Shown in pieces: positions 16 through 12,944 of a stretch of 12,944 nt of DNA (its first letter is position 1; each line of letters begins with the position of its first letter). Origin of the DNA: Dehalococcoidia bacterium. GTDB taxonomy: Bacteria > Chloroflexota > Dehalococcoidia > SAR202 > UBA11138. The stretch is taken from assembly GCA_012270665.1 (NCBI GenBank), contig JAAXHY010000385.1, forward strand, positions 1 through 12,944. The letters are read 5' to 3'. The notes beneath the pieces were generated by a model, which was given only the letters and a program-made list of their open reading frames with translations, was not told the origin of the DNA and did not search any database. Position numbers and translations under genes: made by a program.

Positions 16-1221
16 ATGACCGCGCAGAGATTTCCTTCCGAGAACACAGATGGCGCCGCCGGCGGCAAGCGCGTCGACGGATCGGATGACTTCAGTCGCC
101 TTTTTGGGGAGGATATTAACAGCCTGCTGGATCCGGCGTCCTGGGCGCCGGGTGTTGGCCTGGCCAACACTTACGCGCGAATGGAACGTGAGACACGCCT
201 GGCGGTGGAGCGGGAGCGAGGCGTCGCCAATACGATTCGGGAGAAGCTGTTTCCGAGAATAGCGCCCAATGCGCTCGCCGGGCCGGCGTCGGGGGTTTAC
301 CAGGCGACACCGGAGCAGATAAACCGCGTTCATAACGGCCTTCTGCTCAACGGCAACGTCGAGGCGTGCGCGGGGATCAGCATGGCGCACGAGACGCTCG
401 CTATGACGTTTATGCAAGTCGGCGTGTGCATGGTGTCGTACCAGGGGGATCAGCAGTCCTGGTCGCATCGTATGTATCGGCGCGATTACCGCTCGGACAG
501 CGGCGACCTGATTACGGAGATGCTGTCGGTTCTGGACAGACGCAGAGTGGGGGACCGGGTGAGCCGCCTGGCGCGAAGGGGAATACTGGCTTACGCGGAG
601 AGGATGTTCCTCACCAGAATTTCTCTCGCTCGCTGGAGAATATGCCAGGGAGCGCCCGCCCCTTTCGAACTTATAACAGGAGCCGGGCTGCTGAGTCCGG
701 GCGAATCCGGGATGGCATACCCGCTCATGCAGTCCGGCATGGCGATTTTGAGGGAGCTGATTCTGAGGCACAGACGGTTCGTGTTCATCCCCAAGCGCGC
801 CCAAGATCAGGACGGGGCTCTGCTGACAATCGGGCGGGCGCTGGCGCCCTTGGAGTACGCGGTGTTGGACACGATAAGCGACCGGATAGAGTCGGTGGAG
901 CAGACGGGGCACTACGATGCCAGACAGCGGGCGGCGCTGTCCGGGTTCAGGGAAGATGTGGGAGATGTAGTGGTGAGAGGTGTGTTCCGGGCTTCTAGGA
1001 TTGGACCGCCGCAGGTCTTCTACGCTCACAGGGACTATGTTCACGTCGCGGCGCTGATAGCGCTGGCGGACAGCGTTTTGCAGGAGCAGCGAAGCTATCC
1101 GGTTCTGCTGGACCTGGCGCGGACGGTGTGCGAGACGACTTTCGGGGTTGACAGTTTCGCGCCTCAGCTAAGAGTAGCCTATACGGACGCGGGCGCGCCG
1201 TGGACGACTATCGAATCTTGA
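16..1221 (+). CDS. NurA-like domain protein (HerA partner)
   Basis: A 401-residue protein that I assign to the NurA nuclease family mainly by context: the next gene is a HerA-type ATPase, and NurA and HerA work together as a DNA end-resection machine. Within the protein, a stretch around residues 108-145 and another around 195-260 (ending in a basic IPKR at 258-261) are placed like the two NurA active-site regions. The C-terminal YPVLLDLA at 361-368 resembles the conserved end of NurA proteins. The Asp-Gly-Ser style acidic motifs are not obvious: the corresponding places read NGN (112-114) and ITGAG (220-224), so the nuclease may be inactive or divergent. No signal peptide or membrane segment is seen. 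The ATG follows AGGAG at 6-10 with good spacing; a TAG at 13-15 may end an upstream gene. It could also be an unrelated HerA-linked effector. Confidence 0.6.
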   Translation: MTAQRFPSENTDGAAGGKRVDGSDDFSRLFGEDINSLLDPASWAPGVGLANTYARMERETRLAVERERGVANTIREKLFPRIAPNALAGPASGVYQATPEQINRVHNGLLLNGNVEACAGISMAHETLAMTFMQVGVCMVSYQGDQQSWSHRMYRRDYRSDSGDLITEMLSVLDRRRVGDRVSRLARRGILAYAERMFLTRISLARWRICQGAPAPFELITGAGLLSPGESGMAYPLMQSGMAILRELILRHRRFVFIPKRAQDQDGALLTIGRALAPLEYAVLDTISDRIESVEQTGHYDARQRAALSGFREDVGDVVVRGVFRASRIGPPQVFYAHRDYVHVAALIALADSVLQEQRSYPVLLDLARTVCETTFGVDSFAPQLRVAYTDAGAPWTTIES

Positions 1222-1250: not shown

Positions 1251-3095
1251 ATGGACATAAGCGCAGAGTTGGCTGATTCGGTTGTGCGGAAAGCGCCGGA
1301 GGAAGCGCTGCTGAATGAGTTGGAGGGTCTGGAGGCGTTCACTCCCCCACAGCGGGAGGGGGTGATCGGGTGGACGATGTTCGACACGCCGACGGCGCGG
1401 GACGATACGGTTGTGGCGCTTTTGCCGAAGAATCAGATTGGGGCGGTTCCGAATCGTGGGCTGGTTCGGATCGAGAGCGAGGCGGACGGGCGCGAGTACC
1501 TGGGTATAGTGCAGGAGGGGCCGTTCGCGGAGCCGGACGGTCTTCGCGGGGACGCGCCGCTGGTGGTGACGGTGCAGGCGCGCAGCGGACAGATGCTTCT
1601 GCCGCAGTTTCATGGTCGGATTCACATAGAGATCATGGGACAGAAGTCGGGGACGGTTGTCGCGCCGCCGAGGTTCAGACCGCTGCCGTCGAGTCCGGTG
1701 TTCTTGCTGGACGCGGATGAGACGCGGGAGTTGCTGCGGTGTGATGGGGACATGACGCTGGGTCTGGCGTCTGGGTATGACGACCTGGTGGTGGGGATAC
1801 CGTCGGATCGGAAGTCGGTACTGCCTCGGCATACGGGGGTTCTGGGAACGACGGGCGCGGGCAAGTCCACGACGGTGTCTCGGATGATACAGCAGGCGCG
1901 GGGCGCGGGCATGGCGGTGGTTCTGCTGGATGTGGAAGGCGAGTACTCGGAGATAGGCAGGACGGCGGACAATCCTGAGATGGTGGAGCTTCTCTCTGAG
2001 CGGGGAATGGAGCCGGAGGGGGTGAGCGGGACGACGCTGTATCACCTGGCAGGGACGGATACGACGAATCCGAGGCATCCGGACAGGCGGGAGTTTTCGC
2101 CGCCGTTCTCGCGGCTGTCGCCGTATATGGTGTGTGAGATTCTGGATCTTTCGGACGCTCAGCAGACGCGCTATTGGCAGGCGTATGAGGTGTGCAAGGC
2201 GCTGTTGAGGGAGTTGGGGATATATCCGCAGAGGTTGATGGGACGGGTGGATGAGGGCCAGGAGCGGCGGGTGGAGCGGCTGGATGAGTTTAGCGAAGGC
2301 TATCCGGGGATGACGCTGGGGGCGCTTCTGGATGTGGTGTCGGCGTTTCTGCGCGGGGTAGAGCGGCAGGACGGAAGTCCGAGGCTGTACTCGGCGGAGT
2401 TCCGCGATCATGCGGATAGGGTGATGGGGCGGGTGAATCAGGTTCGGGCGGATTCGGCGGTGAGTTGGCGAGCGCTGAGGGCTCGGCTGTTCAGGCTGAT
2501 GCGGCTGGGTGTGTTCGATTCGCGGAGGTCGGGGGTTCGGCGGATGGATTATGGGGGGATGGTTCGGCCTGGCGCGGTGTCTATCGTGGATCTGTCGGAT
2601 ATGGAGGCGCCGGAGCTTAGGAATTTGGTTATCGCGGACATCATCCGGGGTGTGGAGGAGGCTCAGGAGGAGGCGTTCGAGTCGGCGGCGCGGTCGGGGG
2701 CCGGTCTGCCTCGGACGCTGGTGGTCGTGGAGGAGGCGCATGAGTTTCTGTCGGCGGAGCGAACTCGTCGTATGCCGAATTTGTTCGGGACGGTGAGCCG
2801 GATAGCGAAGCGTGGACGGAAGCGGTGGCTGGGACTTGTGTTCGTCACTCAGCATCCCCAGCATTTGCCGGATGAGCTTCTGGGGCTTCTGAATAATTAT
2901 GTTTTGCACCGGATCAATGACGCGAATACGATAGGCCGTTTGCGACGCTCGATAGGCGGGATTGACGCGGGTCTTTGGGAGCGGGTGACGTCGCTGGCGC
3001 CGGGCCAGGCGGTGGTGAGTTTTACGCATCTGAGCCGGGCGATGTTGGTTACGGTTGATCCGACTCAGTGCCGGCTGCGGATGGCGGAGGAGTGA
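1251..3095 (+). CDS. herA: HerA-type DNA translocase/helicase ATPase
   Basis: A 614-residue ATPase of the HerA/FtsK class, which forms a hexamer that pumps double-stranded DNA and feeds a partner nuclease. Residues about 50-140 look like the N-terminal HAS barrel. The Walker A motif is GTTGAGKSTT at 199-208, with a following acidic strand VVLLDVEGEY at 223-232. Walker B is VVVEEAHEFL at 491-500, a basic stretch RIAKRGRKR (517-525) may carry the arginine finger, and a sensor-like VTQHPQHLP lies at 532-540. A GTG at 1200 would add 17 residues and overlap the upstream gene, but the ATG at 1251 has GGAGGG at 1241-1246 and is preferred. It lies 29 nt after the NurA-like gene, presumably in one operon. 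Codon use is very G-rich on the coding strand. A DNA-repair pair is the simplest view; a HerA-based defence module next to CRISPR is possible. Confidence 0.9.
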   Translation: MDISAELADSVVRKAPEEALLNELEGLEAFTPPQREGVIGWTMFDTPTARDDTVVALLPKNQIGAVPNRGLVRIESEADGREYLGIVQEGPFAEPDGLRGDAPLVVTVQARSGQMLLPQFHGRIHIEIMGQKSGTVVAPPRFRPLPSSPVFLLDADETRELLRCDGDMTLGLASGYDDLVVGIPSDRKSVLPRHTGVLGTTGAGKSTTVSRMIQQARGAGMAVVLLDVEGEYSEIGRTADNPEMVELLSERGMEPEGVSGTTLYHLAGTDTTNPRHPDRREFSPPFSRLSPYMVCEILDLSDAQQTRYWQAYEVCKALLRELGIYPQRLMGRVDEGQERRVERLDEFSEGYPGMTLGALLDVVSAFLRGVERQDGSPRLYSAEFRDHADRVMGRVNQVRADSAVSWRALRARLFRLMRLGVFDSRRSGVRRMDYGGMVRPGAVSIVDLSDMEAPELRNLVIADIIRGVEEAQEEAFESAARSGAGLPRTLVVVEEAHEFLSAERTRRMPNLFGTVSRIAKRGRKRWLGLVFVTQHPQHLPDELLGLLNNYVLHRINDANTIGRLRRSIGGIDAGLWERVTSLAPGQAVVSFTHLSRAMLVTVDPTQCRLRMAEE

Positions 3096-3874: not shown

Positions 3875-3907
3875 AGAGGATGCCCCGGGACTCCCGGGGC
3901 ATCCTCT
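3875..3907. terminator. Strong hairpin, probable bidirectional terminator
   Basis: A perfect 16-base inverted repeat with a single central C: the left arm runs 3875-3890 and the right arm 3892-3907, GC-rich at the tip (GCCCCGGGA). It begins 4 nt after the stop codon of the small membrane protein gene. Neither side has a clear T run, so it is not a textbook intrinsic terminator. It also lies downstream of the minus-strand crRNA-like RNA (3942-4035) and could close both converging transcripts. Confidence 0.65.
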
Positions 3908-3941
3908 CGCTTCCTCGATGATGATCTTTGCCGAAATCGAA

Positions 3942-3972
3942 AATGGGGCCTTACCCTTTCGGGCAAGGAATC
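3942..3972 (-). repeat. Degenerate CRISPR repeat with conserved hairpin (downstream pseudo-repeat)
   Basis: On the minus strand this matches bases 1-31 of the 36-nt array repeat at 26 positions. The stem is CCTTGCCC/GGGTAAGG with loop GAAA, against CCTTGCTC/GAGTGAGG with loop GGAA in the array, followed in both by CCCCATT. The last five repeat bases (GAAGC) are lost, as expected where no further crRNA handle is needed. Confidence 0.8.
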
Positions 3973-4010
3973 GGGTGCATGGAATGTTCAACACACCAGA
4001 AGAACGTCAT

Positions 4011-4035
4011 GCTTCAATATGGCCTCGGAAAGAGG
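4011..4035 (-). repeat. Degenerate CRISPR repeat with conserved handle (upstream pseudo-repeat)
   Basis: The last 16 bases on the minus strand match the end of the array repeat at 14 positions, including GAGGCC and the full handle ATTGAAGC. The upstream stem is shortened to CCTC/GAGG (4035-4032 with 4026-4023) around a 5-nt loop, and the 5' half of the repeat is unrecognisable. Confidence 0.7.
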
Positions 4036-4082
4036 ATTTAAGACTTAAGCGGAGACTCGGCATAATAGGAGACGGGAAGACG

Positions 4083-4110
4083 TTATAGTGTTTATGACTT
4101 TCTTATAGTG
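4083..4110. repeat. TTATAGTG direct repeat, 20 nt apart
   Basis: TTATAGTG occurs at 4083-4090 and 4103-4110. The surroundings look like an imperfect tandem duplication of about 20 bp (GAC, then TTATAGTG, in each copy). The second copy lies inside the crRNA-like target. On the minus strand both give TATAA-type -10 boxes that could serve the crRNA-like RNA. Confidence 0.5.
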
Positions 4111-4131
4111 CATTGATGGCCCCTATTGACA
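4091..4131 (+). promoter_or_regulatory. Target site of the crRNA-like RNA over the cas promoter
   Basis: TTT at 4091-4093 fits the TTN PAM reported for type I-G. The protospacer from 4094 matches pseudo-spacer bases 1-5 (ATGAC), 7-11 (TTCTT), 13, 15-17 and 20-23. Mismatches are at 6, 12, 14, 18 and 19, and the match fades after 23. Positions 6, 12 and 18 are the bases that type I effectors flip out. A 38-nt footprint would run to 4131 and cover the -35 box at 4126-4131. Seed-only pairing of this kind normally gives binding without Cas3 cleavage. Confidence 0.75.
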
Positions 4132-4154
4132 CAGATACCGTGTCCATGTAGGAT
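4126..4154 (+). promoter_or_regulatory. Sigma-70 type promoter for the tRNA and cas3-csb2
   Basis: A perfect -35 box TTGACA (4126-4131), a 17-nt spacer and a -10 box TAGGAT (4149-4154, 4 of 6) predict transcription starting near 4161. This is 52 nt before the tRNA and about 160 nt before cas3. No terminator is visible between the tRNA and cas3, so both should share this transcript. Confidence 0.65.
4128..4144. promoter_or_regulatory. Inverted repeat in the promoter spacer, candidate operator
   Basis: GACAC (4128-4132) and GTGTC (4140-4144) are inverted around 7 nt and overlap the -35 box. The 11 bases GATACCGTGTC (4134-4144) recur exactly, in reverse complement, in the CRISPR leader at 12587-12597. 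A DNA-binding regulator common to both sites is possible. Confidence 0.35.
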
Positions 4155-4162
4155 TGGTGACG

Positions 4163-4205
4163 GGGGAGAAGTCTCTAACGGGTCTAGTCATTGAGACAAC
4201 TCCCC
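4163..4205 (+). other. Hairpin in the 5' leader of the tRNA-cas transcript
   Basis: GGGGAG (4163-4168) pairs with CTCCCC (4200-4205) and GTCTC (4171-4175) with GAGAC (4193-4197), separated by an AA/AA internal loop and capped by a 17-nt loop. It begins about at the predicted transcription start and ends 7 nt before the tRNA, so it fills the whole tRNA 5' leader. Role unknown; it may aid tRNA processing or be a regulatory RNA element. Confidence 0.5.
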
Positions 4206-4212
4206 TGAGTGT

Positions 4213-4286
4213 GCGCCCGTAGCTCACGTGGACTAGAGCACCCGCTTGCTAGGCGGAAGGAGTCGGTTCGAATCCGACCGGGCGCG
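4213..4286 (+). tRNA. Class I tRNA with anticodon GCU on an arginine-type body
   Basis: A 74-nt cloverleaf. The acceptor stem GCGCCCG (4213-4219) pairs fully with CGGGCGC (4279-4285), with G73 at 4286 and CCA not encoded. The D stem is GCTC/GAGC, with G18-G19 at 4230-4231 and A20 at 4232. The anticodon loop TTGCTAG (4246-4252) gives anticodon GCT (4248-4250), which reads serine AGC/AGU. The T arm GTCGG-TTCGAAT-CCGAC is perfect. Bacterial serine tRNAs carry a long variable arm, but here it is only 4 nt (AGGA). The acceptor and D arm look like tRNA-Arg, and A20, C35, U36 and G73 are arginine identity elements in E. coli. A C-A mismatch at 27-43 and C15/A48 are slight blemishes. It lies 37 nt upstream of cas3. 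It may be a functional odd tRNA, a decaying copy, an integration target, or the toxin of a CreTA-like module. Confidence 0.8.
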
Positions 4287-4323
4287 TGTCACTTGATGGG
4301 ATTGTAGCACAAAGGATGTAGCA

Positions 4324-7020
4324 ATGGCGGAATCAGTAGGAAATGCATTTCATATAGACTTCAGGGCTTTAACGGGACACTCTCCCTTGCCCTGGCAGAT
4401 GAATCTATTTGGCAAGATGGTTTCGGGCAGGATTCCGGGGGTTTGCGATCTGCCGACGGGCTTGGGAAAGACCTCTGTGATCGCGATCTGGCTTATCGCT
4501 CTGTGCCGACAGGCGGCTGAGGGGAGAATCACGCTACCGAGACGGCTGGTCTATATCGTCAACCGGCGGACGGTCGTGGATCAGGCTACGGCAACGGTGG
4601 AACAGATCCGTGATAGGCTTCGGAATCCAGGCAGTCCCGATTGGATGGAACACGCGGAGACGCTTAGAGCACTAAGGATTGCGCTTCAGGATTTGTGCTT
4701 AGAAGGGTCAGGCTTCCTTGGGGTGAGTACACTGCGGGGGGAACTGGCCGACAACCAGGAATGGAAGACGGATCCCGCTCGCGCCTCTATTATCGTTGGA
4801 ACGATAGATATGATTGGGAGCAAACTGCTGTTTAGTGGGTACGGAGATGGTCGCTACAAGCGCCCGCAACACGCCGGACTTATCGGGCAGGATTCGCTGA
4901 TAGTGCATGATGAAGCGCATCTGACGCCCGCTTTCAGCGCGCTCCTGCGGAGCGTTAGGGCTATTCAGGAAGAAGAAAGCGCCCCTCGCCGTATCCGCGT
5001 GATGGAACTGTCGGCGACTCAGCGGGATGGAGACGTGGGGGACGATGTTCTGCGACTAGGGCTAGATGATGAACGGAACAGCATCGTCGCTGAGCGGATT
5101 AGCGCGAGGAAGCTAGTTCGGTTGCGCGAGTCAGACAAGAAGGCTCAGAACAAGGACTTGGCGGACCTCGCGCATGAACATGATGGTTCTCGCGCAAAAG
5201 TGTTGGTGTATGTCCGCTCGCCAGAGGATGCGGTCAAGATTGCAAAAGACCTGAAAAAGCGGACCAATGATAACTCTGATAAGCGGGTTGCTCTGCTTAC
5301 AGGAACTATCAGAGGCTATGAGCGCGACTGTCTCGTAACCGAAAACGCTGTCTATCGACAGATGCTGAATCCTGAATCAATGCCCTCCGAAACGGTGTAT
5401 CTAGTCAGCACATCGGCGGGCGAGGTCGGGATAGACATTGACGCTGACCAGATGGTTTGCGACGTTGCGCCTCTGGACTCGATGATTCAGCGGCTTGGGA
5501 GAGTAAACAGGCGGGGCGGACACCAGCGTGAAGCGCATGTTGATGTGCTGTGGACTGAGGAACAGACTAATCCCGGCCAGAGGTCTTCCGAGTTTGCCAG
5601 GTCTATGGCCAAGACACTTGAGATTCTTCGGCGATGGGTGGAAGAGTCAGACGGTTCGCTGGATGCCAGCCCACGCAATGTTCGGGGTCTGATTGACAGC
5701 CTGAGCTCTGAAGAGCGTGAGGAAGCGTTCTCGCCAAAGCCCGAAATACGAGAGGTGACGGATATTCTGCTGGACGCCTGGTCGCTGACCAGTGTTGACG
5801 ATATGCCTGGGCGTCCAGAGGTTGGGCTGTATCTTCATGGAGATGTGGATGACCCGCCGGAGACATATGTTGCGTGGCGGAAAGAGGTTGGCTTGTTCGA
5901 TGAACATGGGGTGGCTGAACAGGAGATGAGACATTGGTTCAATATATGCCCCGTCTGGTCCAATGAGAGGGTGCAAGGGCAAACCGACAAGGTAAAGGCT
6001 TTTCTTCGTGGCTTGCTGAGAGAGCATCGAAAGAAGGATGGGTCTAGCGATTTTCTGGTTGTGATACTGGACAATCGTAGAAAAGTTAAGTGTATGAAGT
6101 TGTCCGAGGCGCTAGACAGTGCGGACAGGCAATTGCTGAATTTCAAGACGCTGGTATTGCCCGCAGAAGCGGGGGGACTTGATAAATTCGGTATGTTTGA
6201 TTCGAAAATCACGGATCCCACTGGGAATATAGATGTGGCTGACCAAGATGGTGGTAACAGGAAACGCAGGCGTATCTTTCCGGGCGAATCGAGTTCCGGG
6301 GGATGGAAGGAGCGCGGCAGTGTAACCCTGCGGGAGGCTACCGAGGGGTTGGAAGACGATGAGAAAGAGGTGGTACTGAGCCTAGTGATGTCAGGGCGCG
6401 ATATGGCTGTTGACGATCATGAGCAGGCTAAATTCGATATGACTCTGTCAGTACATACGACAGCCATCGTGTCCAATATAGCAGGTATTGGAAAGAGAGT
6501 CGGACTGAAAACCGAAATTGTGGACGCTCTTGCTTTGGCCTGTGAGTGGCACGACAAGGGGAAGGACAGAGATATATGGCAGCGTTACGCGGGCAAGCAA
6601 GGTGAAGTTGAGAAATATGCTAAGTCCGAAAAGTATCTGCATGGGCGCGCTCTAGCAGGGTACCGGCACGAGTTGGGTTCCCTACTTGACGCCATGCGTG
6701 ACAGTGCGATCTCAGAACACTCTGAATGTGATCTGATTCTGCATCTAATAGCTTCGCATCACGGACTGGCCCGTCCACACTTCGGATCTGAGTCTTTCGA
6801 CAAGGAACGATATGGCACTCGAGAGAACTCGGAAGCGGTCAATGAAGTGATGAGGCGGTTCGGGCGACTTCAGAAGCGGTACGGACGCTGGGGACTGACT
6901 TGGCTAGAGGCATTAATGCGGTGCGCGGATATAGCGGCTTCTCAGCCGTCAGGCGGGTTCGAGGAGCCGGACGTGGACGGAAATCCGTGTGAACACGGTA
7001 CTCAGATGTCACTTCTGTAA
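4324..7020 (+). CDS. cas3: Type I-G Cas3 helicase-nuclease with C-terminal HD domain
   Basis: The 898-residue effector nuclease-helicase that is recruited to DNA bound by the Csb complex, unwinds it and degrades the displaced strand. The superfamily 2 helicase comes first: Walker A PTGLGKTS (44-51), DEAH (196-199), SAT (230-232), and motif VI QRLGRVNRRG (389-398). The HD nuclease domain is at the C-terminus: H711, H743-D744 in WHDKGK, H782, HHG (812-814) and probably D869. This helicase-then-HD order is reversed from most Cas3 proteins and is characteristic of type I-G. All visible catalytic residues are present. ATG 4324 follows AAAGGA (4311-4316) at 7 nt. It heads a tight run with csb3, csb1 and csb2 behind the promoter at 4126-4154, so the crRNA-like RNA should control it. 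Codon use is less G-skewed than in herA or cas4-cas1. Confidence 0.95.
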   Translation: MAESVGNAFHIDFRALTGHSPLPWQMNLFGKMVSGRIPGVCDLPTGLGKTSVIAIWLIALCRQAAEGRITLPRRLVYIVNRRTVVDQATATVEQIRDRLRNPGSPDWMEHAETLRALRIALQDLCLEGSGFLGVSTLRGELADNQEWKTDPARASIIVGTIDMIGSKLLFSGYGDGRYKRPQHAGLIGQDSLIVHDEAHLTPAFSALLRSVRAIQEEESAPRRIRVMELSATQRDGDVGDDVLRLGLDDERNSIVAERISARKLVRLRESDKKAQNKDLADLAHEHDGSRAKVLVYVRSPEDAVKIAKDLKKRTNDNSDKRVALLTGTIRGYERDCLVTENAVYRQMLNPESMPSETVYLVSTSAGEVGIDIDADQMVCDVAPLDSMIQRLGRVNRRGGHQREAHVDVLWTEEQTNPGQRSSEFARSMAKTLEILRRWVEESDGSLDASPRNVRGLIDSLSSEEREEAFSPKPEIREVTDILLDAWSLTSVDDMPGRPEVGLYLHGDVDDPPETYVAWRKEVGLFDEHGVAEQEMRHWFNICPVWSNERVQGQTDKVKAFLRGLLREHRKKDGSSDFLVVILDNRRKVKCMKLSEALDSADRQLLNFKTLVLPAEAGGLDKFGMFDSKITDPTGNIDVADQDGGNRKRRRIFPGESSSGGWKERGSVTLREATEGLEDDEKEVVLSLVMSGRDMAVDDHEQAKFDMTLSVHTTAIVSNIAGIGKRVGLKTEIVDALALACEWHDKGKDRDIWQRYAGKQGEVEKYAKSEKYLHGRALAGYRHELGSLLDAMRDSAISEHSECDLILHLIASHHGLARPHFGSESFDKERYGTRENSEAVNEVMRRFGRLQKRYGRWGLTWLEALMRCADIAASQPSGGFEEPDVDGNPCEHGTQMSLL

Positions 7021-7042: not shown

Positions 7043-7810
7043 ATGAAATCGGATATTGAAGTTCAGGTTGACGTGACCAATCCTGGGGAGTTCTTGGCGT
7101 GTTGCGGACTTCTGGAACTCGCCGACCGTCTGAGTTCGGGGGCGGAAGGATGGTTCGACAGCGATAGATTCTACATAATTTTCTCAGACCCATCGGGTGG
7201 GGTCACAATCCATGAAGCGTTGTGGTCTGTGATAAACGTGGAGGTTGAGAGCGAGTCTGGGGAGAGGGAATCCCCTCTGCTGGTGGGTAAGCCGCTCGAC
7301 ATACGACTTGACTGGTGGATGACGGACGGCAGGAATAATATGCTCAAGACTTGGGCGGGGCAGCAGGACTCTATGAAGATGTTCTCAAAGTGGGAACAGC
7401 CGCTAAGGGAAATCTTATCGGAAGAAGACCCGGACATAAACTTGCTGTTTCGGCAGCAGAGGCCGATACAGGGGCCTTACGGATTTGATTCTAAGTTCGG
7501 ATGGGACGCTTTATCCGTGGGGTTTTCCCTGAACGAACATACACGGTACAAGAAGTCAACGGCCCGTCCAGTCATAGAGATTCTGGGGGCTATCGGGCTT
7601 CAGAGATTTACTCCTGATATGGACCGGAGCAATGGAATAGTTCGATACGCGACCTGGAATACGCCTCTGCCTCCTTCGGTCGCTCGTCTCGTCGCAGTGG
7701 GTGCGTTGCCCCACGCGGCACTTATGAGATTGGAATCTGAAACAACCAGACGTGGCAGCTACAAAGGACTCGCCACTGCGCGAATACAGACAGGAGATTT
7801 GGATGACTGA
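7043..7810 (+). CDS. csb3: Csb3, type I-G effector subunit (GSU0052 family)
   Basis: A 255-residue protein of the Csb3 (GSU0052) family, the small Cas8-like subunit found in one branch of type I-G; the other branch uses the larger Csx17. It is expected to help the complex recognise the PAM and recruit Cas3. The diagnostic N-terminal stretch is NPGEFLACCGLLELADRL (13-30). The C-terminal region has LPPSVARLVAVGALP followed by RGSYKGLATARI, which also fits the family. The ATG at 7043 has GGAG at 7031-7034. An in-frame ATG at 7025 and a GTG at 6989 inside cas3 are less likely starts. It begins 22 nt after cas3, and its last 8 bases overlap csb1, suggesting translational coupling. Confidence 0.85.
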   Translation: MKSDIEVQVDVTNPGEFLACCGLLELADRLSSGAEGWFDSDRFYIIFSDPSGGVTIHEALWSVINVEVESESGERESPLLVGKPLDIRLDWWMTDGRNNMLKTWAGQQDSMKMFSKWEQPLREILSEEDPDINLLFRQQRPIQGPYGFDSKFGWDALSVGFSLNEHTRYKKSTARPVIEILGAIGLQRFTPDMDRSNGIVRYATWNTPLPPSVARLVAVGALPHAALMRLESETTRRGSYKGLATARIQTGDLDD

Positions 7811-8882
7811 CACACTTCATACTTTCGACGACTGGATTCAGGATGATAGCCCAATCGGGGCGGTCGTCATGCGTCAACATCTCGAACCCATTGAGGGCCC
7901 GGACGCCATGATTTTCCCACCCACGTACCCGATTGACCGTGATACGGCAGGCTACAATATAGACCAATTCGATGATGGAACAAGCGTCTGCCAGATTGAT
8001 AGCGTTGGTTCCCAGGCAAACCGAATGGAACCCATATTCAAGAGGGCGAAATACAAGTCCCTCATTCCGCAGGTGATTATCAAGGCGGAAGAAAGAGAAC
8101 TTCACATACTCGACGCCGGCCATAGGGCGGCGGACGCGATTGTAAGGTTCTCGACGCCTATCAATTCGGAGTTATACCAGGCGTTCGAGGCTCTACGCGA
8201 TAAGGGTGAATCGGAATCTCTGGCTCGAATCGCGCCGACGTCAATTGTATTCGGGGCTTGGGACTCAAGAGGCACTCAGGTAAAACTTCCTCGAATCGTC
8301 AGGTCGGTAATCAGGGCGTTCAATGTCAAGGAACTCAAGCGGTCGGCGCAGTATGCCACAATCGCGGGTGAGATACTCGAAGACGGTGAGGCGGAAACGG
8401 GAGAGAGTGGCGCGAAAGCGGAGCTAGGTCTGACTCACGTTCCGTCTGTCAAGACTCACGGAGGAATAAGGGCCGATGGCGGAATCCGACGTGACGCGGT
8501 GTTGAGTCTATCGCCTCTGCGAGCTTTAGGCAGCGCATCGGGAGAACCTGAAGATGACGCGAAATTGAGACGCTATATCCTGGGTCTGTGCCTAGTCGCT
8601 TTCACCGCTCCGGCTGAGATTGCGCTGCGTGAAGGGTGCGAACTTGTTCCGGTGGTGGATAAGCCGGCGGAGTGGAAGGTCGTCCGGCATGATGGCAACA
8701 GAGATTCCTTCGATCTGTCACACGACGCGGCACTAGGGTTCGCAGGCTCAGCCGCCGATGACTTCGGCGTTAAGCAGGAAGAGATTCAGGCCACCTTCGA
8801 CAGCGCTCTGGCTCGCAGGTTACTTAGCGCGAATCAGAATACCAGAAGAAGCAAGCTCAGGCAGGACCCGGCAACGTGGTAG
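7803..8882 (+). CDS. csb1: Csb1 (Cas7), crRNA backbone subunit of type I-G
   Basis: A 359-residue Cas7-family protein (TIGR02570, GSU0053 type) that polymerises along the crRNA spacer to form the backbone of the type I-G effector complex. Family hallmarks seen: IFPPTYP near residue 37, the block IDSVGSQANRMEPIF (about 65-79), the LDAGHRAADAIVRFS segment, FGAWDSRGTQVKLPRIVRS, and the glycine-rich GGIRADGGIRRDAVL. The ATG at 7803 has AGGAG at 7792-7796, six bases upstream; a longer in-frame start at 7752 is not supported. It overlaps csb3 by 8 nt and csb2 by 7 nt. The backbone sets the 6-base rhythm of crRNA-target pairing seen in the promoter target at 4094-4116. Confidence 0.93.
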   Translation: MTDTLHTFDDWIQDDSPIGAVVMRQHLEPIEGPDAMIFPPTYPIDRDTAGYNIDQFDDGTSVCQIDSVGSQANRMEPIFKRAKYKSLIPQVIIKAEERELHILDAGHRAADAIVRFSTPINSELYQAFEALRDKGESESLARIAPTSIVFGAWDSRGTQVKLPRIVRSVIRAFNVKELKRSAQYATIAGEILEDGEAETGESGAKAELGLTHVPSVKTHGGIRADGGIRRDAVLSLSPLRALGSASGEPEDDAKLRRYILGLCLVAFTAPAEIALREGCELVPVVDKPAEWKVVRHDGNRDSFDLSHDAALGFAGSAADDFGVKQEEIQATFDSALARRLLSANQNTRRSKLRQDPATW

Positions 8883-10363
8883 ATGAAAGCGAGTACAAGA
8901 TGGAACGATACCTGTGCATCTCAGTAACCCTGCTTGATCCGCTGTATCACGGCAAAGGCGATTCAGAGCGTCCGGAGTGGCCGCCATCGCCGATGAGATC
9001 GTTTCAGGCGATGCTCGCAGGATCGAGAGCGGGAACTCGGAAAGCGCGTTGGTTGACACAAGTCCGGAGCGATTTCACTGACGCCTTCATGTGGTTGGAG
9101 CGTCAGAGTCCGCCGATGATAGTCACGCCGCGCGCGGAGCGGGTGAGAGCGTCACATACTCTGTTCGTCCCGAACAACGACAGCGATGAGATATTCGACC
9201 AGCGGGACAGGCTTACGTCCAAGTATGCACATCCGCATCGCCTGGTGTCCGAGGACGGCGGTCAGATGATTCACTACCTTTGGGGAATTTCGGAAGAAGA
9301 CTGGACCGATTCGCGTCCATACGCGGAGATAATGGCTCGTGAGGCGCGTTGTCTGATGGCTTTGGGCTGGGGGATTGACCAAGCGGTCGGGAATGGGGAG
9401 ATACTCAGCGCGGCGCAGGCCGGCCAGTTACAGGGTGAAAGGTGGCAGCCGTATCCTGGAGATACACTGACCGACGGCAGACTACGTGTGCCGATAGAAG
9501 GTTCGTTAAGAAACCTTGAAGCAGTGTATGAGTCGTTTTGCGCGCAGTTGGAAGGTGGGATGTACAGCCCTCCGATGAAGTTCACACAATTCGACGTGGT
9601 GAGATATGTGAGGGCTACACAGCTTCCGAATAGGCCATACGTGGCGTTCGAGTTGCCGGACGGCTGTGCGTTTCGGCAGGAAGCAGCGAATGAAGTCGCG
9701 GGGATGTTGCGCTCGCTGGCCTGTCGTGAGCCGAACAGGAACGACTTCCATGAAGAGTTTGGGGACGATACCGAGGTCTATCTCGCAGGACACGTGAAGG
9801 GTGAGGACCGCACTCCGCCCAGGTTTTCGTACCTTCCGATACCAACGATAGGTCATCAACACGCGGACGGTATGATTCGACGTTTGTTGATTGCCGAACC
9901 GTATGGCGGTGATGGGACACGGGCAAGGTGGGCGGACAGGCGGTTAGGTGGTCAGACATTGACTGATAGCAGAGGCGACCAAAGGGGACAGCTATTCGGA
10001 CTGTGGCGGAACGCATCCCGTAGGATAGTGAACCGCTATGTTGGAGAGCATCGAATATGGTCAACTGTAACCCCGGTGATACTGCCAGGATTCGATGATG
10101 GAAAGTTAGTAAAAGCTGAAAGGCTGTTCCTGAAGGCAGTTCAGCAGGCTGGCATTTCAGTTGACGGGATCAAGGACGTCACTCTGCGGATGGTGCCGTT
10201 CTGGCCAGGGTCGCAACATCCTCGCGATTATCGCAGACCGAAATATCTGAAACACCTGCCGGGCTGGCACGCGCGGATCGAGTTTCGAGAACCCGTATCT
10301 GGGCCGCTCGCGATTGGAGCAGGCCGCCATGCAGGTCTGGGGGTTATGGCCGGCTCCGATTGA
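8876..10363 (+). CDS. csb2: Csb2, Cas5-Cas6 fusion of type I-G
   Basis: A 495-residue protein of the Csb2 (TIGR02165, GSU0054) family, fusing a Cas5-like subunit that holds the crRNA handle to a Cas6-like endoribonuclease that cuts the repeat hairpin. The N-terminal YLCISVTLLDPLYHG and PEWPPSPMRSFQAMLAG (33-49) are typical. The second half starts near YLPIPTIGHQHADG (319-332), where H327 and H329 are candidate catalytic histidines. The end has a glycine-rich loop, GPLAIGAGRHAGLGVMA (476-492), as in Cas6. GTG 8876 has AGGA at 8863-8866 and overlaps csb1 by 7 nt; the ATG at 8900 fits the usual family N-terminus equally well. It would process both the array transcript and the crRNA-like RNA, whose downstream pseudo-repeat keeps the hairpin. 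It ends the interference operon. Confidence 0.92.
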   Translation: MVDESEYKMERYLCISVTLLDPLYHGKGDSERPEWPPSPMRSFQAMLAGSRAGTRKARWLTQVRSDFTDAFMWLERQSPPMIVTPRAERVRASHTLFVPNNDSDEIFDQRDRLTSKYAHPHRLVSEDGGQMIHYLWGISEEDWTDSRPYAEIMAREARCLMALGWGIDQAVGNGEILSAAQAGQLQGERWQPYPGDTLTDGRLRVPIEGSLRNLEAVYESFCAQLEGGMYSPPMKFTQFDVVRYVRATQLPNRPYVAFELPDGCAFRQEAANEVAGMLRSLACREPNRNDFHEEFGDDTEVYLAGHVKGEDRTPPRFSYLPIPTIGHQHADGMIRRLLIAEPYGGDGTRARWADRRLGGQTLTDSRGDQRGQLFGLWRNASRRIVNRYVGEHRIWSTVTPVILPGFDDGKLVKAERLFLKAVQQAGISVDGIKDVTLRMVPFWPGSQHPRDYRRPKYLKHLPGWHARIEFREPVSGPLAIGAGRHAGLGVMAGSD

Positions 10364-10455: not shown

Positions 10456-12144
10456 ATGGTTGCGGCTGCGTCTGTTATCCAACCGAAGGCTGCGGCGGAG
10501 CTTGTTCCGGCGCGGATGTTGAATGAGTTCGCGTATTGTCCTCGGCTTTGTTATCTGGAGTGGGTGCAGGGGGAGTTCGCGCATAGCGCGGATACGATTG
10601 ACGGACGGTTTCAGCATCGTCGGGTGGATCGGGAGTCGGGGAGTTTGCCCGGGCCGGATTCTGGGGATGATTCGGTGATTCACGCGAGATCTGTGTTGCT
10701 GTCGGATGAGGGATTGGGGGCTATCGCGCGGATTGACCTGGTGGAGGCTCAGGGGAGCCGGGCGACGCCGGTGGATTATAAGCGTGGGAGGGTTCCTAAT
10801 GTGCCTGAGGGGGCGTATGAGCCGGAGCGGGCGCAGTTGTGCGTGCAGGGGCTTTTGCTGAGGGCGCATGGGTATGAGTGTGATGAGGGTATCATCTATT
10901 TTGTGGCGTCGAAGCGGCGGGTGGCGGTGCGGTTCGATGATGGGTTGGTGGCTCGGACGCTGGAGTTGCTGGAGGGGGCGCGTGGGATGTCGGAGTTGGG
11001 TGAGATTCCGCCGCCGCTGGAGGATAGTCCGAAGTGTCCGCGCTGTTCGCTGGTGGGGATATGTCTGCCGGATGAGGTGTCATTTTTGCGGGGGAGTTCG
11101 TATGTGATCAAGCCGGATGATGTTCGGCGGATGGCTCCGGCGCGGGATGACGCTCTGCCGATGTATGTGCAGGCGCAGGGGGCTGTGGTTGGGAAGTCGG
11201 GGGATAATGTTACTGTGCGTATCAAGGGTGAGGTGGTGTCGAAGACGCGGCTGTTGGATGTGTCGAGTGTTTCGATTTTCGGGAATGCGCAGGTGACGGC
11301 GCAGGCGGTGCGGGAGTTCCTGGACCGGGGGATTCCGATTTGTCATTTCAGCTATGGCGGCTGGCTGAAGGGTGTGACGTGGGGGATGGGTCATAAGAAT
11401 GTGGATTTGCGGATTCGTCAGTTCGCGGCTGCGAGGGACAGGATCGGGTCGGTGATGATCGCGCGGGAGCTTGTGATTGCGAAGCTGCGGAATAGCCGGG
11501 TTATGCTGCGCCGGAATCATCCTGACGCACCGGAGAGGGCGTTGAAGGAGTTGATGCGGCTGTCTCGGAACGCTCGGAAGGCGGATTCGCTTCAGACGTT
11601 GCTGGGGATAGAGGGTGCGGGGGCGAGTGTGTATTTCTCGAATTTCGGGGAGATGATCCGATCCGAGGAGGGGGCGTTTGATTTCAGGACTCGGAATCGG
11701 AGGCCGCCTAGGGATCCGGTGAACGCGGTGTTGTCGTTTTTGTATTCGATGTTGATAAAGCAGGCGCTGGTGTCGGCTATCGCGGTGGGGTTCGATCCGT
11801 ATATGGGGTTCTATCATCAGCCGAAGTATGGGAAGCCTGCGTTGGCGCTGGACCTGGCGGAGGAGTTTCGTCCGATAGTGGCGGATTCGGCGGCGTTGAC
11901 TTTGTTCAATAATTCGGAGTTGGCGCCTGGGGATTTCGTGCGGAGGTCGGGGGCCGTGGCTCTGACGGAGACGGGCCGGAAGGCGGTGATCCGGGCGTTC
12001 GAGCGCCGTCTGGATACGCTGATAACGCATCCGCTGTTTGGGTATTCGATCAGCTACCGGCGGATAATGGAGGTGCAGGCGCGGCTGCTGGGTCGGCATA
12101 TCCTGGGGGAACTGCCGAGGTATCCGGCGTTCAGGACGAGGTGA
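10456..12144 (+). CDS. cas4-cas1: Cas4-Cas1 fusion, spacer acquisition integrase
   Basis: A 562-residue fusion typical of type I-G. Cas4 selects and trims PAM-bearing prespacers, and Cas1 integrates them next to the leader. The Cas4 part (about 1-225) has the RecB-type nuclease residues H54, D94 (ARIDLVE), D107 and K109 (VDYKRG) and Q127. Its iron-sulphur cysteines are C28 (or C32) with C194, C197 and C203. The Cas1 part (about 235-562) has E386 in GIEGAGA, H454 in FYHQPKYG, and D466/E469 in LALDLAEEFRP. All key residues are present. The ATG at 10456 follows GGAGG (10444-10448); an upstream in-frame start at 10384 lacks support. It is separated from csb2 by 92 nt and followed by cas2 after 3 nt. 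Its extreme G-over-C coding-strand bias resembles herA more than the cas3-csb2 block. Confidence 0.96.
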   Translation: MVAAASVIQPKAAAELVPARMLNEFAYCPRLCYLEWVQGEFAHSADTIDGRFQHRRVDRESGSLPGPDSGDDSVIHARSVLLSDEGLGAIARIDLVEAQGSRATPVDYKRGRVPNVPEGAYEPERAQLCVQGLLLRAHGYECDEGIIYFVASKRRVAVRFDDGLVARTLELLEGARGMSELGEIPPPLEDSPKCPRCSLVGICLPDEVSFLRGSSYVIKPDDVRRMAPARDDALPMYVQAQGAVVGKSGDNVTVRIKGEVVSKTRLLDVSSVSIFGNAQVTAQAVREFLDRGIPICHFSYGGWLKGVTWGMGHKNVDLRIRQFAAARDRIGSVMIARELVIAKLRNSRVMLRRNHPDAPERALKELMRLSRNARKADSLQTLLGIEGAGASVYFSNFGEMIRSEEGAFDFRTRNRRPPRDPVNAVLSFLYSMLIKQALVSAIAVGFDPYMGFYHQPKYGKPALALDLAEEFRPIVADSAALTLFNNSELAPGDFVRRSGAVALTETGRKAVIRAFERRLDTLITHPLFGYSISYRRIMEVQARLLGRHILGELPRYPAFRTR

Positions 12145-12147
12145 GGG

Positions 12148-12438
12148 ATGCGGAATCGGTATATCGTGGCGTATGATGTGAGTAATGCGAAGAGGCTTCG
12201 CCTGACGTTCAGGAAGATGAATGGTTTCGGTGAGCCGCTTCAGTATTCGGTGTTCTCGTGTGACCTGTCGAGGAAGGAGCGGGTTTTGCTGGAGGAGTCG
12301 CTGACGGAGATCATCAATATGAAGGAGGATAGGGTTCTTATCATTGATACGGGTCCGGCTGAGGGTCGAGGCGGCGGGTCGCTGCGGACGCTGGGTCGGC
12401 AGTTGGTTCCGGAGGCGCGGGATGTTACGGTTGTTTGA
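12148..12438 (+). CDS. cas2: Cas2, spacer acquisition subunit
   Basis: A 96-residue Cas2, the dimeric core that bridges Cas1 dimers during spacer integration. The N-terminal strand ends in VAYDV with the conserved Asp at residue 10. FGEPLQYSVFSCDL (27-40) is the usual second block. LIIDTGPAEGR and the C-terminal VTVV strand complete the fold at normal length. The ATG comes 3 nt after the cas4-cas1 stop, behind a GAGGTGAGGG purine stretch, so the two genes are co-translated. It sits directly before the leader, completing the adaptation module. Confidence 0.94.
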   Translation: MRNRYIVAYDVSNAKRLRLTFRKMNGFGEPLQYSVFSCDLSRKERVLLEESLTEIINMKEDRVLIIDTGPAEGRGGGSLRTLGRQLVPEARDVTVV

Positions 12439-12633: not shown

Positions 12634-12944
12634 GTTTCCTTGCTCGGAAGAGTGAGGCCCCATTGAAGCAGAGCTCTCGATACGGGCGTTGATGTCGCGA
12701 TGGAGTTTCCTTGCTCGGAAGAGTGAGGCCCCATTGAAGCACTCGTAGTCTATCCCGCGGATATACTGCGTACGCTGTTTCCTTGCTCGGAAGAGTGAGG
12801 CCCCATTGAAGCCGAGCCGAGCGGCGCGCCGAGATTCCGAGCCGAGCGGTTTCCTTGCTCGGAAGAGTGAGGCCCCATTGAAGCTCGGATTGAAGCCTCT
12901 GAGTACATCGCTGAACAAGAGTTTCCTTGCTCGGAAGAGTGAGG
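12634..12944 (+). CRISPR. Type I-G CRISPR array, runs off the window end
   Basis: Four identical 36-nt repeats at 12634-12669, 12705-12740, 12777-12812 and 12849-12884, and the first 24 nt of a fifth at 12921-12944. Spacers are 35, 36, 36 and 36 nt. The repeat starts GTTT and then forms an 8-bp stem, CCTTGCTC with GAGTGAGG (two G-T pairs), capped by the GNRA-type loop GGAA. It ends CCCC-ATTGAAGC; the last eight bases are the expected crRNA 5' handle. Orientation follows from cas2 and leader upstream and the handle at the 3' end. Identical repeats show that the degenerate distal end lies outside. I found no obvious match of the spacers to this window by eye. Confidence 0.98.

Follow-up and report, generated by a model that had tools for sequence, protein, structure and literature searches.

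A two-repeat mini-array matching the cas promoter region points to probable RNA-guided cas self-repression in a type I-G CRISPR locus

Upstream of the type I-G cas operon in a 12,944-nt stretch of DNA from a Dehalococcoidia bacterium (contig JAAXHY010000385.1; the window, by which we mean the whole stretch that was analysed), we found a mini-array on the minus strand, outside the main array of clustered regularly interspaced short palindromic repeats (CRISPR). It consists of a degenerate repeat, a 38-nt pseudo-spacer and a second degenerate repeat (Table 1), and the pseudo-spacer partially matches the promoter region of the same operon. Judging from the anatomy of the mini-array, the protospacer-adjacent motif (PAM), the sixth-base rhythm of the mismatches and the covariation of guides with their targets across relatives, it is very probable that the mini-array acts as a creR-type gene and that the Csb complex, led there by the guide, sits on the cas promoter region and turns down its own operon. 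That RNA-guided cas self-repression extends to type I-G is a well-supported prediction from sequence, and two phyla supply comparative evidence for it.

The two repeats are degenerate in different parts. Repeat 1 is identical to the CRISPR repeat at 19 of 36 positions, including all of its final 8 nt, and folds weakly (-4.0 kcal/mol). Repeat 2 shares 27 of 36 positions and folds at -13.6 kcal/mol; as read from the sequence, its stem was preserved through one two-sided pair change. Csb2 of type I-G systems cleaves 4 nt from the base of the stem and leaves an 8-nt handle (PMC9638904, available text), and the handle and hairpin of the mini-array have a geometry compatible with such cleavage. Local alignment to the repeat alone missed repeat 1 of the window with its decayed stem, and a scan for the handle plus the guide was needed. 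No intrinsic terminator was called at the palindrome past repeat 2.

Bases 1-23 of the guide match the plus strand at 4094-4116 in 18 of 23 positions, with mismatches at 6, 12, 14, 18 and 19, and TTT precedes the match. These values exactly reproduce those of a preliminary description of the window, which had proposed that the pseudo-spacer targets the cas promoter. We also obtained its 38-nt footprint (4094-4131), which stops at the final base of TTGACA; TAGGAT lies 17 nt further on. Promoters are consensus matches only in this analysis and should be taken as a lead (a scan of the window gave 4 sites versus 1.4 expected). With the real guide, none of 5000 dinucleotide shuffles of 4013-4324 reached 18/23. 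We then used a masked score, which counts guide positions 1-17 minus 6 and 12 (15 positions) and calls for a TTN PAM; the observed value is 14/15 and no shuffle among the 5000 went beyond 12/15. A search independent of the repeats, run on 1.26 kb that spans the cas3 start and the DNA ahead of it, found this pair as the sole one of at least 14/15; in the control, which pooled 350 shuffled regions from 35 loci, 11 regions yielded any such pair. The match between guide and target in the window is beyond chance.

In order to find relatives, a contig scan was performed, which gave two loci; the closer one, L001 from SAR202 cluster bacterium bin90, has a Cas3 that is 71% identical over nearly its full length. 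Further type I-G loci were drawn from the class of L001 (cas3 in 11 of 393 genomes), its order (csb2 in 13 of 250) and its phylum (csb2 in 13 of 400). The resulting Chloroflexota-side set has 31 stretches, namely the window, L001 and L042-L070. In L050, tblastn detected no csb gene; this stretch is possibly not a type I-G effector locus, and it is counted as a miss among the 31. The gammaproteobacterial set has 19 stretches from 18 of the 19 genomes with csb2 (369 genomes in total). G219, G595 and G596 (short contigs), G1152 (contig end) and L040 were left out. The handle scan looked for a guide after a repeat-like end and a target at most 700 nt away; in the 31 stretches, 322 of 1000 candidate guides had at least 10/14 tail matches. 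Shuffle controls cover these 31 stretches, and gammaproteobacterial hits were counted without a shuffle control. The repeat-independent scan omits L056, L062, L064 and L068 (less than 500 nt upstream) and L053 (no core gene match).

Eight pairs with a TTN PAM scored at least 13/15, versus 0.05 expected from the 322 candidates in 20 shuffle rounds, or 0.2 if all 1000 candidates are taken; none of the 20 rounds produced a score of 14 or more. These pairs belong to L052 (two, L052a and L052b), L058, the window, L063, L060, L067 and L051, and all of them sit upstream of cas genes. Two more pairs were accepted on the Chloroflexota side. That of L042 reaches 14 but is flanked by CTT where a TTN PAM is expected, and that of L001 was accepted for its longer match, 20 of 25 bases, which none of 3000 shuffles attained, and not for its masked score. 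The total is ten pairs in nine of the 31 stretches. Among Gammaproteobacteria, three of the 19 stretches (L158, L165 and L169) have a pair; each has a TTT PAM, mismatches at both 6 and 12, and intact positions 1-5 and 7-11, and the targets lie directly upstream of csb1 or cas3. Over the whole set, the gene downstream of the target is cas3 or csb1, in L058 and L052b with a small ORF in between, and a TTN PAM is present in 12 of 13 pairs (11 of 12 besides the window). The mini-array points away from the operon in 8/13 pairs; in the other five (L051, L067, L158, L165, L169) it stands between the target and the cas gene, on the operon strand. As a 42-nt piece, repeat 2 forms a hairpin in 12/13 pairs, and in L060 it does so in a 90-nt context; the L042 hairpin is seen in the 42-nt piece and not in the 90-nt fold. 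Repeat 1 folds more weakly than repeat 2 in all 13 pairs, although the difference is slight in L158.

Nearly all guides differ in sequence, with those of L042 and L052b alike. When each of the 13 guides was scored on each of the 13 regions, the own-region score was 12-15 in 12 of 13 cases. The remaining one, L042, scored 7 because its PAM is CTT. Foreign pairings scored 10 or less in 154 of 156 cases. In the other two, the guide of L042 scored 15 on the region of its relative L052b, and that of L052a scored 12 on the region of L051. Guides and targets covary across two phyla. The preliminary description had named covariation of pseudo-spacer and promoter in relatives as a check on its claim, and the cross-pairing bears this out; likewise, the seed match that it expected relatives to maintain is kept through other sequences in the 12 further pairs, with positions 6 and 12 free.

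The mismatches follow a rhythm over the 13 pairs. Positions 6 and 12 are mismatched in 19 of 26 cells, versus 1 of 52 at positions 5, 7, 11 and 13. Mismatches occupy 5 of 130 cells at positions 1-5 and 7-11, 10 of 65 at 13-17, 49 of 78 at 18-23 and 71 of 91 at 24-30, so that complementarity fades past about position 17. Since the scan ignored 6 and 12, matches elsewhere in 1-17 were favoured, and a phase test on the 31 stretches served as the control. Masking 6 and 12 gave 8, 5 and 3 hits at scores of at least 13, at least 14 and 15, respectively, and the ten other phases gave at most 6, 3 and 1. According to the available text of PMC9638904, Cas7 of type I-G flips out every sixth base and TTN is the PAM, as the preliminary description had stated. 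CreA is described as needing its seed at 1-5 and 7-11, with 6 and 12 dispensable (PMC8501985). The 13 natural pairs suggest pairing rules for type I-G: a TTN PAM, positions 1-5 and 7-11, mostly 13-17, free choice at 6 and 12, and little beyond 17. Such rules convert directly into reporter tests for the type I-G effector.

The following sequence of events is what we propose. The mini-array would be transcribed, and Csb2 would cut the transcript to yield a guide resembling a CRISPR RNA (crRNA), with the 8-nt handle of repeat 1, the 38-nt spacer and the hairpin of repeat 2, and the Cas7/Csb complex would take up this guide. Recognising the TTT PAM and pairing with the target at 1-5, at 7-11 and at most of 13-17, the complex would bind the promoter region upstream of a transfer RNA (tRNA) gene and cas3 and would block transcription. 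Cas3 would presumably not be fired, because complementarity fades after about position 17. It is from the work on CreA and CreR that we infer both the repression and the absence of cleavage. If ordinary crRNAs became abundant, or if an inhibitor removed the complex, repression would be expected to lift and more Cas protein to be made.

A computational survey of CRISPR-derived regulatory elements by Shmakov et al. (2023, Nucleic Acids Research, gkad495) reportedly dealt with solitary repeats and with mini-arrays directed against cas promoters. CreRs are described as mediating autorepression in types I-B, I-E and V-A through partial promoter complementarity (review PMC13131331); another text speaks in general terms of 'Type I and Type V-A' (PMC12737573). 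The element of the window resembles them in having a mini-array near cas genes, limited complementarity to the cas promoter and a predicted crRNA-like guide; it also has two degenerate repeats outside the array, a partial seed match beside a valid PAM, and guide-target co-evolution. It differs in its effector, which is type I-G (Csb1, Csb2 and Cas8g), and in the tRNA gene between promoter and cas3. Of all type I subtypes, type I-G is described as the one that is least understood (PMC9638904). No CreR-type case in type I-G was found in the available text of the literature searched, which did not cover two primary papers, and we make no claim of priority. In CreTA, the antitoxin guide CreA and the toxin RNA CreT go together with two divergently degenerate repeats and effector-dependent repression (PMC8501985). 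The divergently degenerate repeats, the seed at 1-5 and 7-11 and the freedom at 6 and 12 are shared with the window (PMC8501985); the differences are that no CreT mini-gene was recognised in the window and that the target precedes cas genes. What follows the guided promoter in the window is an arginine-like tRNA with a serine anticodon, a candidate toxin only, and a similar tRNA is also found away from cas genes.

This tRNA gene was absent from the preliminary description. Its arginine-like body is of class I and lacks a long variable arm, unlike an ordinary tRNA-Ser, and all six of its matches in the 250 genomes of the order are tRNA-Arg. L001 has a comparable gene (9628-9702, minus strand; anticodon ACT; class I arginine-like body) that adjoins its mini-array, and nine of nine matches are tRNA-Arg, leaving aside itself and the G516 tRNA. 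The L001 tRNA is an extra, because an ordinary tRNA-Ser(GCT) of class II (L122) is encoded in the same genome. A third odd tRNA, with anticodon GCT and a class I arginine-like body, is found in G516 (L143 1501-1578; L143/L172). There, no CRISPR repeats were found within 6 kb and no cas family in the seven neighbouring open reading frames (ORFs), which include an integrase about 4 kb from the tRNA; six of the seven and the integrase were searched against Pfam. With the window tRNA as query, neither the L001 nor the G516 tRNA was found at E 1e-6. The link between tRNA and CRISPR is weakened by this failure and by the position of the G516 tRNA away from cas genes, and the loci of the window and L001 may hold unrelated tRNAs.

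Several observations weigh against self-repression of the cas operon as we propose it. No pair was found upstream of cas genes by these criteria in 22 of the 31 Chloroflexota-side stretches (some of them incomplete) or in 16 of the 19 gammaproteobacterial ones. The same holds, among the matches listed, for the handle scan of nine named plasmid-borne loci out of 21 records (Cereibacter, Rhodothermus, three Thermus, Azotobacter, two Streptomyces and Actinomyces). L046 has three repeat-like copies upstream of csb1 (393-599, minus strand) and no promoter match was detected for them. With a masked score of 12, L001 does not rise above chance (1 seen, 1.05 expected), and L042 departs from the TTN PAM. 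Because the scan selected for the handle, finding a handle in relatives does not count as independent evidence, except for the window, L052a, L058 and L063, whose pairs a handle-free scan also recovers. As for the targets, a same-strand promoter-like site of at least 9/12 lies near only 6 of the 10 examined, and the target of L051 is near a divergent cas4-cas1. The window promoter precedes the tRNA as well as cas3, and the L001 promoter (9827-9856, minus strand; 12/12 consensus), which overlaps the target, faces the tRNA and the mini-array and not cas3.

The last two points would fit an addiction module like CreTA, in which a toxic RNA, and not chiefly the cas genes, would be what the guide represses. 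The candidate toxin would be the tRNA with arginine body and serine anticodon, which could place arginine at serine codons once the effector is lost. The surplus tRNA of L001 and the tRNA-Arg matches of both genes agree with this. The creT gene precedes creA in CreTA, and the order of tRNA and mini-array behind the L001 promoter resembles it. Nevertheless, such a module is unlikely given the surroundings of the G516 tRNA, the failure of the window tRNA as query to find the other two, the lack of any tRNA found in the seven other Chloroflexota-side stretches with a pair, and the gammaproteobacterial targets that directly precede csb1 or cas3. We regard as slightly less likely still the combined case, in which one type I-G-guided promoter controls the cas operon together with a rogue arginine-carrying tRNA reading serine AGY codons. 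If true, mistranslation would be set free once the effector is lost or inhibited, and a tRNA-toxin addiction or abortive-infection module would be fused to cas self-regulation.

It is also quite improbable that the complex regulates mainly the promoter of the mini-array itself, the tRNA or cas4-cas1, or that it activates instead of repressing. The L001 target on a promoter facing the mini-array, the L051 target and the five mini-arrays lying between target and cas gene would suit this reading, whereas the promoter-like sites near six targets, a consensus lead only, speak against it. Decay in both repeats might indicate an autoimmune relic, that is, a spacer once taken from the own promoter in an array now decaying and without present function. 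However, the decay is patterned, with the handle kept in repeat 1 and the hairpin in repeat 2, the mismatches cluster at 6 and 12, and guides covary with targets in two phyla, which makes a relic very improbable. Chance resemblance has nothing in its favour except the short length of the match, and the 5000 shuffles and the eight pairs over the loci leave it a negligible probability.

Other matches were set aside. On the Chloroflexota side, the high scorers L065, L057, L046, L069, L055, L044, L045, L043, L049 and others have no TTN and lie in coding, array or tandem-repeat DNA. The gammaproteobacterial matches of L161, L162, L164, L168 and L171 (13-14/15) have no TTN, and a second L169 pair (score 12, TTG PAM) was also discarded. 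Handle-free TTN pairs at 14-15 in a G+C-rich tandem repeat of L049 and an A+T-rich pair of L073, both without a handle, were judged spurious. In the plasmid set, L074, L076 and L079 gave loose matches away from the region upstream of cas genes, and array self-matches of L071 are among the matches listed.

By profile search, the window holds a type I-G locus, with cas3g, cas8g, csb1, csb2, cas4g-cas1g and cas2 each above the curated cut-off.

Table 1. Positions of the mini-array, its target and the surrounding features in the window
Feature	Position	Strand	Details
Palindrome past repeat 2	3875..3907	.	16-bp arms; possible small-RNA end; without U run
Degenerate repeat 2	3937..3972	-	retains 8-bp hairpin; handle decayed to ATTTTCGA
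Pseudo-spacer (guide)	3973..4010	-	38 nt; 18/23 match to 4094-4116
Degenerate repeat 1	4011..4046	-	retains 8-nt handle ATTGAAGC; weak 4-bp stem
PAM	4091..4093	+	TTT; TTN is the type I-G PAM in PMC9638904
Guide target (protospacer)	4094..4116	+	core match 4094-4110
Promoter-like site	4126..4154	+	TTGACA (4126-4131), 17 nt, TAGGAT (4149-4154); 10/12 consensus
tRNA gene	4212..4287	+	anticodon GCT (Ser AGY); body without long variable arm; ARAGORN, Rfam
cas3g	4324..7020	+	TIGR02621, 655 bits (cut-off 400)
cas8g2	7043..7810	+	TIGR04106, 152 bits (cut-off 125)
csb1 (cas7g)	7803..8882	+	TIGR02570, 124 bits (cut-off 38)
csb2 (cas5-cas6 fusion)	8900..10363	+	TIGR02165, 259 bits (cut-off 45)
cas4g-cas1g	10456..12144	+	NF049935, 768 bits (cut-off 560)
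cas2	12148..12438	+	TIGR01573, 28.6 bits (cut-off 24.5)
CRISPR array	12634..12944	+	36-nt repeat GTTTCCTTGCTCGGAAGAGTGAGGCCCCATTGAAGC; runs into window end

Small ORFs were seen next to some of the targets. L058 has a 65-aa ORF (MPNRRTQY...NHWHIGHSW; 16578-16775, minus strand) between the targeted promoter and cas3, with no Pfam match. An ORF of about 78 codons starting with MTRTRY runs from about 5430 downwards on the minus strand of L052, after the targeted promoter of the L052b pair and before cas3, and an ORF with the same start is shortened to 18 codons before csb1 in L042 (about 6810-6868, plus strand). L169 has an 1866-aa ORF (11751-17351, minus strand) in which Cas3 helicase and HD domains, a Fic domain (PF02661, 27.2 bits; cut-off 24) and additional sequence are fused; the adjoining csb1 matches over a short piece only. 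Ahead of the CRISPR locus of the window, the gene at 16-1221 matched nothing in Pfam or NCBIfam at E 0.001. It is followed by a gene for a HerA-like ATPase (1251-3095), which is also seen by eye in L001 at about 8200-9390.
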